NCBI GenBank assembly: GCA_005791875.1
Contig: SXTU01000312.1
Coordinates: forward strand, 1-35,135
Length of the DNA stretch: 35,135 bases
Source of the DNA: Verrucomicrobiales bacterium
GTDB lineage: Bacteria; Verrucomicrobiota; Verrucomicrobiia; Limisphaerales; SXTU01
Direction: 5' to 3'
Shown here: in pieces, positions 9,539 to 35,135 of the stretch
Position numbering within the stretch: the stretch's first letter is position 1
Layout: the number at the start of each line of letters is the position of its first letter
The notes under the pieces: model-generated
The model's database searches: none
Seen by the model: only the letters and a program-made list of their open reading frames with translations
What the model was told of the DNA's origin: nothing
Translations under genes and position numbers: made by a program

Positions 9539-9542
<4 letters not shown>
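8085..9542 (+). CDS. NAD(P)-dependent aldehyde dehydrogenase
   Basis: 485 residues, the usual length for the ALDH superfamily. The N-terminus (NFIGGEWIAAASGQTFTNLNPAD) is typical of semialdehyde dehydrogenases. Visible motifs are the Rossmann/cofactor segment PWNFPIAIPAWKMAPALVSGNAVIIKPA, FTGSLGVG, the catalytic glutamate in EMGGKNP, the catalytic cysteine in GQACTATSR and the C-terminal EVFGPVVGI. The NPADT start and QASMT-like PASQAPAM region fit alpha-ketoglutaric semialdehyde (2,5-dioxovalerate) dehydrogenases of uronate/pentose oxidation, but succinate-semialdehyde or other aldehydes are possible. The stop overlaps the next gene's ATG by four bases (ATGA), so it is translationally coupled to the cytochrome-like DUF1549 protein. 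Confidence 0.9.
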
Positions 9543-12259
<2,717 letters not shown>

Positions 12260-25426: not shown

Positions 25427-27832
25427 CTACATCAGGCTCACCGGGTCAATGTCCACGGTCAGCGTGACATCGTCGGGCAGCTCGATCTGTTCGAGCAGCG
25501 TCGCCAGCATCTTGCTCACGCGCGGCATCTGCTTGGTGCGCAGCATGAGCTGGTAGCGGTAGAAGGTCTCGGCACGCAGCAGCGGCGCGGGCGCGGGGCC
25601 GGCGAGGACGAGGTCGCGGAGCGGTGCGCTCGGAGCGGGAGCAGGTGAGAGGGTGGGAGAGTGAGAAAGTGGGAGCAGCTCCAGCGTGTCCGTGCTCGCC
25701 GTCTCGCTTTCCCGGTTTCCCACTTTCCCACCGGCCAAAGCCTCCAGTTCGCGCGTCACGTGCTCCGCCATGAGCTTCACCTTCTCCTCGTTGCGGCCTT
25801 TGAACGTGAGCATCGCGAGGCGCGAGGCAGGCGGGTAATTGAGCTCTTCGCGGAACTCGATCTCCTGCTCGTAGAAGCCGGTGAAGTCGTGGCGTCGGGC
25901 GTATTGGATCGCCGGGTGAAACGGCGTGAAGCTCTGCACGAAGACCTCGCCCTCGACCTCGCCGCGGCCGGCGCGACCGGAGACTTGGGTGAGGAGTTGG
26001 AAGGTGCGCTCGCCCGCGCGGAAGTCCGGGATGTGCAGGCTGAGGTCCGCGTGGATGACGCCGACGAGCGTGACGTTCTCGAAGTGCAGGCCCTTTGCGA
26101 TCATCTGCGTGCCGACGAGGATATCGGTCTTGCCGGCTTTGAAATCGCCGAGCACGCGGCGGTAGTCCTCCTTGCGCTTCATCAGGTCGCTGTCCATCCG
26201 CGCGATGCGGGCGTGGGGGAAGAGTTTCGTCAGCGTCTCCTCGACGCGCTCGGTGCCGAGGCCGGCGTAGCGGATGGCGGCGCTGCGACACTTCGGCTCG
26301 GGGCAAGCGGTGGGCGCGGGGGCTTCGTGGCCGCAGATGTGGCAGCAAATCTTCTGCGCCTTGCGATGGTAGGTGAGGGCGACGCTGCAATTCGGGCACT
26401 CGGCCACGAAGCCGCACTGCGGGCACTGGAGCGAGCTGGAGTAGCCACGCCGGTTGAGGAAAAGCATCGTCTGCTCCTTGCGCTCCAGGCGCTTGGTGAT
26501 GGCCTCCTTGAGTTCCTCCGAAAAGATGGGCGTGCCCTTGTCCTTGCGCGCCGCCTGCCTCATGTCCACGACACGGACGATGGGCATCTTCTTGTCGTCG
26601 GCGCGCGTGGGGAGTTCGAGCAGGGCGTATTTGCCGCGCTGGACGTTGTAGAAGCTCTCCATCGAGGGCGTCGCCGAACCGAGGACGACGACAGCGTTAT
26701 CCATCTGGCCGCGCACGACGGCGACATCGCGCGCGTGGTAGCGCGGGGCTTCTTCTTGCTTGTAGGAATGCTCGTGCTCCTCGTCCACGATGATGAGCCC
26801 GAGTGGTTCGACGGGCGCGAAGATGGCGGAGCGTGCGCCGATAACGATCCGAGCACGGCCCTGCCGAATCTTGTGCCACTCGTCGTGCCGCTCGCCCGCG
26901 CTCAGGTGCGAGTGCAGCACTGCGACTTGCGTCTGGAGCGGCCCGTGGCTGAAGCGGGCCTTGAAGCGCTCGACGGTCTGCGGCGTGAGCGCGATCTCCG
27001 GCACCAGGACGATGGCGCCCCTGCCCTGTGTGAGCGCGTGGGCGATGGCCTGCAAGTAAACTTCCGTCTTGCCCGATCCGGTGACGCCGTGAAGAAGGAA
27101 GGTTGCAGGTGAGAAAGTGGGAGAGTGGGAAAGTGAGCTGGTGCGCTCGGACGCCATCTCACTTTCTCGCATTCCCACTTTCTCACCCGCCCCGCCCCCC
27201 TCGTCCATTCGCTTGCAAATCACCGCCAGCGCCTTCGCCTGCTCCGCGTTCATCGTCAGCGACTCGGTGCGGCTGATGACATCCTTCGCATACGGGTCGC
27301 GCTCGGAGACTTGGTTGGTGATGAGGACGAGGTGCTTGTCTTCGAGGCGGCGGACGGTCTCGGAGGTGGTCTCGGCGAGTTCGAGGAGTTCCTGCAAAGG
27401 CATTTCCCGACGCTCTTCAAGGAGGTTGAGAATTTCCTGCTGTCGCTTGGTGAGCTTGGGCGTTTCGCTGGTGGCAGGCAGCAGACGAACGATGAGGCGT
27501 TCACGCCAGCCGTCCTTTTCGCGGCGCACGACCTCGGGCAGCACGCTCTTCAAGGCGAGCTCTGGCGCGCAGCAGTAGTAGTCAGCAATCCACCGCGCGA
27601 GCTGGAGCACGCGGGCGGTGACGAGGGATTGTTTGCCGACGACGCCGGTGAGGTGACGGAGGTTCGTGTGCGTGGACTGCTCGGTGAGTGCAGTGACGCA
27701 GCCCATGACCTGCCGGTGGCCGAAGGGGACCTTGACGCGCGTGCCGACCTCCACCCGCCCGGCCAGTTCCGGCGGGATGGCGTAATCGAACTCCCGGCGA
27801 AGTGCGATCTCAAGGGTGACGCGGGCGATCAT
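25427..27832 (-). CDS. priA: Primosomal replication-restart helicase PriA
   Basis: 801 residues from ATG 27832; a TTG two codons upstream is less likely. PriA reloads the replisome at stalled forks. The N-terminal DNA-binding domain (IALRREFDYAIPPELAGRVEVGTRVKVPFG) is typical. Helicase motifs: Walker A LLHGVTGSGKTEVYL, DEEH box (IIVDEEHEHSYKQEEAPRYHARD), GSATPSMES and the zinc-binding region CPQCGFVAECPNC ... CCHICG ... CPEPKC. The C-terminal part has QVSGRAGRG and VLAGPAPAPLLRAETFYRYQ. Two related palindromic segments are read in frame: about residues 216-241, immediately before Walker A, and about 700-730, in the C-terminal domain. Both encode KVGxRESExAS ... LSHSPTxSPA. The protein is otherwise complete and presumably functional. 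Confidence 0.97.
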   Translation of the reverse strand: MIARVTLEIALRREFDYAIPPELAGRVEVGTRVKVPFGHRQVMGCVTALTEQSTHTNLRHLTGVVGKQSLVTARVLQLARWIADYYCCAPELALKSVLPEVVRREKDGWRERLIVRLLPATSETPKLTKRQQEILNLLEERREMPLQELLELAETTSETVRRLEDKHLVLITNQVSERDPYAKDVISRTESLTMNAEQAKALAVICKRMDEGGGAGEKVGMRESEMASERTSSLSHSPTFSPATFLLHGVTGSGKTEVYLQAIAHALTQGRGAIVLVPEIALTPQTVERFKARFSHGPLQTQVAVLHSHLSAGERHDEWHKIRQGRARIVIGARSAIFAPVEPLGLIIVDEEHEHSYKQEEAPRYHARDVAVVRGQMDNAVVVLGSATPSMESFYNVQRGKYALLELPTRADDKKMPIVRVVDMRQAARKDKGTPIFSEELKEAITKRLERKEQTMLFLNRRGYSSSLQCPQCGFVAECPNCSVALTYHRKAQKICCHICGHEAPAPTACPEPKCRSAAIRYAGLGTERVEETLTKLFPHARIARMDSDLMKRKEDYRRVLGDFKAGKTDILVGTQMIAKGLHFENVTLVGVIHADLSLHIPDFRAGERTFQLLTQVSGRAGRGEVEGEVFVQSFTPFHPAIQYARRHDFTGFYEQEIEFREELNYPPASRLAMLTFKGRNEEKVKLMAEHVTRELEALAGGKVGNRESETASTDTLELLPLSHSPTLSPAPAPSAPLRDLVLAGPAPAPLLRAETFYRYQLMLRTKQMPRVSKMLATLLEQIELPDDVTLTVDIDPVSLM
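25645..25732. repeat. Palindromic octad element inside priA (C-terminal copy)
   Basis: Left array of 8-nt units gtgagagg, gtgggaga, gtgagaaa, gtgggag (25645-25675). Right array tctcgctt, tcccggtt, tcccactt, tcccacc (25702-25732). The arms pair at about two thirds of positions. On the coding strand it reads GGKVGNRESETAS ... LSHSPTLSPA with no stop. It is the same family and frame as the copy at 27109-27186. Confidence 0.88.
27109..27186. repeat. Palindromic octad element inside priA (copy before Walker A)
   Basis: The left arm 27109-27137 (gtgagaaa, gtgggaga, gtgggaaa, gtgag) and right arm 27158-27186 pair at about 25 of 29 positions around a 20-nt loop. Coding-strand product GEKVGMRESEMAS ... 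LSHSPTFSPA ends four residues before LLHGVTGSGKT. The element sits in the junction between the N-terminal region and the helicase core. Confidence 0.9.
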
Positions 27833-27838
27833 GAACAA

Positions 27839-34160: not shown

Positions 34161-35135
34161 CTACACCCGCACCCAGCGCTTCGTCCGACTGCTCTTCAGC
34201 ACGGCTTCGCACAGCCTCACCTCGTGGTGTCCATCCGCCGCTGTGGCGAAGAGCACAGGCGTCTTGCGGCCGCTGGCGATGTGTTCATAGACGGCGCGGT
34301 AGTGCATCTTGTGGCTGTCGGGAAAGCCCTCGGGATGGCCGCCTGGATAATCCGTGAAACCCGCGACATCCTCGTTAAAGCCGGCGGTGGCGCGCTGGAG
34401 AATCTGGTTCGGCTCGTCGCGGCGGCCTACGAGAATTTCGTTAGGCTGCTGGAGGTCCCAACGCACGCTGCCCTTCGTGCCGTAGATACCGAGCGCTAGG
34501 CTGCATTTCCAGCCGGCGGCGACCTGTGAGATGGAGGCGTTCGCGTGTGTGCTGTTCACGAAGCCGTGCACGCCCTTGCCGAACTTGAGCAGCACCGTGC
34601 CAAAGTCCTCGGTGTCGCACTTGTAGGGGATCCCGGTAGGGACGCGCTGCTGCGCTTCCGTCGCATCGAAGCCGCGCGGCGGCCCGGCCCTACCAGATTT
34701 TGGTGCCACCTTGGCGAAGGTCTGCACCTCACTCGTGGGCCGATAGCGCGTCTTGTGAAACGTCTCCAAGTGCGCGAACACCGTCTCGGCCTTCGCGCCC
34801 AAGATGAAGCTCACCGCGTCAATCCAGTGCGTGCCGATGTCGCCAACGGCGCGGAGCTTGCCGCCCTCGCTGGCTAGAAGACGCCAATTGTAGTCAGTCG
34901 CGTGCAGCAGCCAGTCCTGAAAGAAGTGACCTTGGACGTGGATGATCTGCCCGAGGTCGCCGCGCTGGACCATCGCGCGCATCTGAAGCAGGGCGGGGAA
35001 GAAGCGGCACATGTAGTTCACCGCGAAGACGGGCGCGCCTTTCCGCTTCACGGCGGCAACGACCTTCGCCGTTTCCTTCGCCGTCATTCCCAGCGGCTTT
35101 TCGCAGACGACGTGCTTGCCCGCTGCGAGCGCGGC
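34161..35135 (-). CDS. Gfo/Idh/MocA family oxidoreductase (N-terminus beyond window)
   Basis: The last 324 residues are visible; the N-terminal Rossmann GxGxxG part lies outside. The first visible residues AALAAGKHVVCEKPLG are the family hallmark with the catalytic lysine (EKP). They are followed by VFAVNYMCRFFPALLQMRAMVQRGDLGQIIHVQGHFFQDW and, in the C-terminal domain, AVGDIGTHWIDAVSFILGA with the GxHxxD-type motif. Such enzymes oxidise or reduce sugars and inositols with NAD(P). An insertion of about 20 residues (KSGRAGPPRG ... QQRVPTG) is encoded by a palindromic repeat, between TFAKVAP and CDTEDFGTVLLKF. It is convergent with smc. Substrate unknown. Confidence 0.92.
   Translation of the reverse strand, partial: AALAAGKHVVCEKPLGMTAKETAKVVAAVKRKGAPVFAVNYMCRFFPALLQMRAMVQRGDLGQIIHVQGHFFQDWLLHATDYNWRLLASEGGKLRAVGDIGTHWIDAVSFILGAKAETVFAHLETFHKTRYRPTSEVQTFAKVAPKSGRAGPPRGFDATEAQQRVPTGIPYKCDTEDFGTVLLKFGKGVHGFVNSTHANASISQVAAGWKCSLALGIYGTKGSVRWDLQQPNEILVGRRDEPNQILQRATAGFNEDVAGFTDYPGGHPEGFPDSHKMHYRAVYEHIASGRKTPVLFATAADGHHEVRLCEAVLKSSRTKRWVRV
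34635..34694. repeat. Palindromic element inside the Gfo/Idh/MocA gene
   Basis: Arms 34635-34655 (ggtagggacgcgctgctgcgc) broken as ggtaggg + acgcgctgctgcgc, and 34674-34694 ending ccctacc, pair at 17 of 21 positions with an 18-nt loop. The minus-strand frame stays open through it. The residues it encodes have no counterpart in the usual family alignment as I know it. Confidence 0.85.

Follow-up and report, generated by a model that had tools for sequence, protein, structure and literature searches.

A GTAG-type REP dimer lies in frame within an oxidoreductase gene of a verrucomicrobial bacterium and belongs to a dispersed family with many copies inside genes

The stretch of DNA analysed here, 35,135 nt in length and referred to throughout as the window, ends within a gene on the minus strand whose ORF (34161–35135) is open up to the window end. 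The predicted protein matches Pfam families PF22725, PF02894 and PF01408, identifying a Gfo/Idh/MocA oxidoreductase whose N-terminal part is missing, and the ORF runs uninterrupted across a 60 nt palindromic element. The features of the locus are as follows.

34161..35135, minus strand: host gene, Gfo/Idh/MocA oxidoreductase, N-terminal part missing (from ORF and Pfam)
34635..34694, minus strand: GTAG-type REP dimer (REPIN-like), 60 nt, read in frame as GRAGPPRGFDATEAQQRVPT
34635..34659, plus strand: REP unit 1, GGTAG tag and imperfect hairpin (model match 34635–34662, 30.2 bits)
34660..34669, no strand: spacer between the REP units, 10 nt (from sequence and unit length)
34670..34694, minus strand: REP unit 2, inverted, GGTAG tag and imperfect hairpin (model match 34667–34694, 28.7 bits)

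The palindrome reported in the initial annotation was reproduced at exactly the same coordinates, 34635–34694, with arms of 21 nt each (34635–34655 and 34674–34694) that are complementary at 17 of 21 positions (81 %) and have 18 nt between them. Likewise, the roughly 20 residues said to be added ahead of a conserved strand were found as GRAGPPRGFDATEAQQRVPT, with DTEDFGTVLLKF starting six residues downstream. When 80 nt around the element were folded, 8 of 200 dinucleotide shuffles were as stable (z-score −1.90), and thus the fold by itself is only moderately unusual. What places the palindrome beyond chance is its dispersal, as exact matches to GGTAGGGNNGNNCTG number 29 in the genome vs 3 for the reversed control, and both halves of the element match a REP unit; a chance palindrome was therefore rejected. 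A known structured RNA was also rejected as the identity of the element, as Rfam returned a single sub-threshold match (18.7 bits against a gathering score of 38), which was taken as chance. The two unit matches form an inverted, facing pair 10 nt apart that is able to form one hairpin. In each, the GTAG tag is terminal, lies outside the stem and is followed by a short stem–loop. As REPINs are described as extragenic and this copy is not, we class the element as a GTAG REP dimer that is REPIN-like in architecture only. The reading as a palindromic in-frame insertion is supported, with the unit now refined to a dimer of two hairpins.

The case for an insertion comes from homologous loci. In an alignment of 110 loci, which combines overlapping sets, includes the window's own gene (L043) and contains six homologues at only 49–54 % identity, the 20 inserted residues were present in none of the other 109; one of these loci (L134) has a stop or frame change. 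Of 58 genomes searched (the window's own and those of relatives), 31 had matches; in many of these the match breaks off at residue 146 or 147 of the query and restarts at 167–169. Scanning named genome contigs contributed 80 further loci, the nearest including Limisphaerales and Pedosphaera. The titles of these are nearly all Verrucomicrobia or verrucomicrobial genera, the exceptions being two 'Proteobacteria', one 'Klebsiella pneumoniae' and one given only as 'bacterium', which may be mislabelled bins. Closer to the window, the insert is missing from the oxidoreductase gene of nine further genomes of the genus, whilst the homologue search found no match to the gene in the remaining one, G009. 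At the DNA level, twelve loci (some representing one genome twice) have ACG, once ACC, in place of TCT plus 60 nt in the window, a net gain of exactly 60 nt. The codons beside the insert are TCT and GGG in the window and ACG or ACC followed by ATG in relatives, and because these neighbouring codons differ the exact junction is ambiguous.

In more distant homologues the loop also varies in length, by two or three residues. Three other loci are likewise long homologues, but their extra stretches (9 and 13 residues in L104; 10 residues in L119 and L069) lie elsewhere, near query residues 30–33, and the DNA viewed for them lacks the GGTAGGG end, so that they were rejected. Inheritance of the loop from relatives was rejected as well, given its absence from all 109 other loci, and among the aligned loci the window copy is present in one genome only. 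The comparison with homologues thus bore out the insertion proposed by the initial annotation, and no orthologue with these residues as ordinary sequence turned up, over a set of loci that is nearly all Verrucomicrobia by title.

An AlphaFold2 model, built from the window protein (without its missing N-terminal part) and 41 homologues, was poor overall (mean pLDDT 62.4), although its top Foldseek matches were Gfo/Idh/MocA-type enzymes such as 3v5n and 4h3v. Residues 137–166 had pLDDT < 50 and lie between strands at 129–132 and 169–172. The model is consistent with the insert occupying a flexible loop between two strands, and the open frame suggests that the oxidoreductase may still be functional.

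Using the element as a blastn query, we obtained 27 further partial matches in its own genome (G000; E ≤ 1). The family unit consists of GGTAG followed by a GC-rich stem of ∼8–9 bp and a TGC-type loop, frequently in inverted pairs, with consensus GGTAGGGCCGCGCTGCnGCGCGGCC (24 units). A covariance model of the unit (R1, with a 9 bp stem) matched 48 places in this genome at E ≤ 0.1, and matches were found in all 11 genomes of the genus searched, its own included, and in 52 of 116 genomes of the order, likewise including its own. Counts within the genus ranged unevenly from 1 to 99, with 99 in G005 and 1 to 4 in G002, G004 and G006. Dimers are common, as single inverted pairs with tags facing outward make up 13 of 38 clusters in the own genome and 33 of 44 in G005. 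Many copies score > 40 bits against R1, compared with 30.2 and 28.7 bits for the two halves of the diverged window copy.

According to the initial annotation, the element belongs to a family distinct from the repeats in the priA and DUF1553 genes of the window. Within the window this stands, in that the REP model has no match beyond 34635–34694 and the PriA palindrome 27105–27190, used as a query, returned 28 genome matches including itself, from another dispersed family. The REP family also occurs in DUF1553 genes elsewhere in the genome (L007 and L012). The PriA gene (ORF 25427–27838, minus strand; Pfam) contains two palindromic stretches of that other family, at 27105–27190 and 25641–25736, with its frame open. 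An inverted repeat of CAGTATTCAGTGTTCAG type lies at 11603–11699, within the DUF1553 domain of ORF 9539–12259, and a similar inverted repeat is found at 1007–1097.

The surroundings of family members were assessed in eight genomes of the genus, in which stretches around matches were fetched and the matches clustered into 122 elements; for relatives, the loci were the best-scoring among the matches listed and hence a non-random sample. Flanks were classed with a codon model for which the fetched loci served as the training set. By this (uncorrected) measure, 43 of the 122 elements lie in frame inside genes, in 29 host-gene clusters. Of the remainder, 35 are bordered by non-coding sequence on both sides and 29 by coding sequence on one side. 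Another 7 are situated between opposite genes; in 6 the coding flanks share a strand but not a frame, and 2 contain a stop. The same model scored random positions as in frame in a gene in only 588 of 1000 cases in the window and 523 of 1000 in the loci, and therefore probably under-calls genes; it scored both flanks as non-coding in 29 and 95 of 1000, respectively. Compared with these rates, the elements are depleted in genes yet far from excluded from them. Pfam scanning covered 26 host ORFs of the first 27 in-gene elements, with 16 later elements outside the scan, and gave at least one match for every ORF. Hosts include UvrA, DNA ligase, MutS (two inserts), RecG, a UvrD-type helicase and the DnaX clamp loader, together with a class I tRNA synthetase, FtsK, a protein kinase, an M16 peptidase, DUF1553 proteins and exosortases. 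One MutS gene of G005 (L187) carries two separate REP dimers, at 2028–2115 and 2773–2829. In the G005 kinase (L199:1989–2048) the dimer lies within the kinase domain and a single domain match spans it; a related protein (L253) also contains a dimer.

Seventy elements were paired, of which 34 were intragenic, 29 formed a non-genic pool and 7 were dropped (four with another frame, two with a stop and one of > 150 nt). The reading frame of the in-gene pairs is strongly skewed: 29 of 34 read GGT AGG, giving peptides like GRADLPVG...AAQQRGPT, whilst the other five (L172, L181, L186, the first of L187, and L197) start in the other open frame and none is in the TAG frame. In L181 and L187 the right half does use the main frame, and L186 is a reversed pair. 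With shared sites collapsed, and the kinase pair L199/L253 of one genome counted as two insertions, 26 independent insertions remained, of which 21 used the main frame. An explanation by stop codons alone was rejected, as they predict a main-frame share of 0.40 (P = 2.6 × 10⁻⁵); in the non-genic pool (29 elements, 58 orientations) the main frame is open in 64 % and the other in 84 %. A pyrimidine stands just outside the element at 97 % of 68 in-gene ends and 83 % of 58 non-genic ends, and when a six-base flank preference, together with openness, served to weight coding sequence, the expected share rose to 0.545, leaving P = 0.005. Stop codons and flank preference thus account for part of the bias, and the six preferred bases may themselves be part of the element. 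Main-frame in-gene peptides contain no cysteine, and open non-genic elements average 1.14 cysteines in the other frame and 0.35 in the main frame. Lengths were a multiple of three in 29 of 34 in-gene vs 18 of 29 non-genic pairs (P = 0.045, a weak test).

Eleven host-gene clusters contain more than one element, and ten of these include a site that is occupied in two or three species. An exosortase insertion is common to G000, G005 and G007 (L003, L204 and L233), and further shared sites occur in a DUF1553 gene and a DEAD helicase (both G000 and G005) and in UvrA (G001 and G005). In the G000 exosortase the left REP has decayed, with the right half still in frame. Seven species pairs from the 11 clusters were used for dN/dS, leaving out L007/L223, L171/L229 and L224/L231 (partial elements) as well as L003 and L227. 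Inserts had dN 0.12 and dS 0.14 (ratio 0.87) vs dN 0.08 and dS 0.42 (ratio 0.19) for flanks; in 2000 flank resamples none had a ratio as high or a dS as low. One pair, L218/L226, went the opposite way (0.38 in the insert, 0.44 in flanks). Compared with its flanks, the insert peptide is accordingly nearly unconstrained. The 25 nt REP ends of shared inserts were nevertheless identical at 334 of 350 positions (95 %), compared with 182 of 230 in the spacers, and a purely neutral passenger may therefore be too simple a description. Either DNA-level constraint or copying between family members would explain the slow change of the ends.

With respect to mobility, Y1_Tnp matches were found in 8 of 11 genomes of the genus and in all six genomes of the order picked for many REPs. 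A mobilising transposase of the REP family was looked for beside 24 Y1_Tnp loci (of 55 matches, in fragmented assemblies) and not found, the scan giving one weak unit (L216, 16.9 bits, E = 0.068). Four Y1 transposase loci (L041, L207, L257 and L259) have long inverted repeats whose spacing would suit repeats that flank the gene. These are unlike the REP family of the window, and several REP or TIR systems may hence coexist.

Taken together, the window segment is very probably a non-autonomous copy of a GTAG-type REP dimer that was inserted after the lineage split and has survived as a translated loop. A dimer copy would have entered the oxidoreductase gene once its lineage had separated from the sequenced relatives in the genus. 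It would have survived owing to a length divisible by three, a frame free of stops and a position in a loop between strands, and it would be translated as a flexible addition of 20 residues. Dispersal, dimer architecture, the open frame and absence from homologues were all observed, as were the many other in-gene copies and the nearly unconstrained evolution of shared peptides. The peptide is presumably translated and tolerated, probably without benefit to the host, and mobilisation may have been by a single-strand (RAYT-type) transposase working on hairpins. An ordinary variable protein loop, in which GC-rich codons happen to be palindromic, would be in keeping with the modest fold z-score and with the variation of two or three residues in distant homologues; set against the dispersal of family members that share their ends (29 matches vs 3) and none of 109 loci with the insert, it is extremely improbable.

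The remaining alternatives concern what, if anything, the element does. Selection might act on the peptide, with the main frame supplying a cysteine-free linker that is useful, or at any rate does no harm, and being kept for that reason. Such a role would accommodate the 21 of 26 independent insertions in a frame that is open less often than the other in non-genic copies (0.64 vs 0.84), the missing cysteines and the ten clusters with shared sites, but a dN/dS of 0.87 points to near absence of constraint, flank preference lifts the expected share to 0.545 (P = 0.005 left) and the window copy was seen in a single genome among the aligned loci; we regard it as quite unlikely. Alternatively, the palindrome might work as DNA or RNA (in protein binding, supercoiling or mRNA processing), the peptide being incidental. 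The well-conserved REP ends (334/350 vs 182/230 in spacers) and the low dS of inserts (0.14 vs 0.42, 0 of 2000 resamples as low) speak for this, although copying or gene conversion among family members would leave the same pattern, the window copy is diverged (28.7 and 30.2 bits vs > 40 for many) and family members reside in numerous unrelated genes, making such a function unlikely too. Beyond the REP dimer insertion itself, one may tentatively imagine a family adapted to genes, whose ends, length classes and flank preference favour one stop-poor, cysteine-free frame: a tolerated, translated parasite spreading through repair and replication genes, with REP ends maintained as DNA past speciation. 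We consider this possible, if rather doubtful.

Most accounts of REP elements place them outside genes, and the best-known examples of palindromic DNA inserted in frame come from Rickettsia. In the verrucomicrobial genus studied here, roughly one in three of the copies examined lies in frame within a gene, with UvrA, MutS, DNA ligase and DnaX among the hosts. As sites are empty, filled or shared across species, the tolerance of repetitive DNA in proteins would become measurable, and the family could separate insertion preference from selection as the factor that sets the frame. Titles and abstracts of open-licence literature, searched without the name Limisphaerales, yielded no report of the present family or of its frame bias.

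As described, the Rickettsia palindromic elements (PMC2229807, PMC10969869) are in-frame inserts in many unrelated conserved genes, and one enzyme bearing such an element is reported to be translated and active. The resemblance is in in-frame behaviour only; they belong to another phylum and are longer (105–146 and about 150 bp). REPINs comprise two inverted REPs and a spacer forming one long hairpin (Bertels and Rainey 2011; PMC3116915). The window element shares the inverted doublet, the spacer and the possible single hairpin, but REPINs are described as extragenic, whereas the window copy lies in a gene, as do 43 of the 122 elements examined. RAYT transposases have been hypothesised as movers of GTAG REPs (PMC2817692, PMC3733652). 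Closest by description are the GTAG REPs that Di Nocera et al. 2013 (PMC3733652) report inside genes, more than half of the inserts being dimers or groups that code for 20–30 residues. The hosts include uvrA, DNA ligase and helicase genes, and intragenic GTAG repeats are most numerous in Opitutus terrae, itself a member of the Verrucomicrobia. No predominant frame, sharing between species or insert dN/dS was found in passages of that article. Both sets have an unpaired GTAG tag, a short stem–loop, dimers and in-gene inserts of 20–30 residues with many repair and replication hosts; the present family differs in coming from another verrucomicrobial lineage (Limisphaerales/Pedosphaera-type by titles). 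Intragenic GTAG REP dimers are thus already known, and it is the frame bias and the shared inserts that are worth following.
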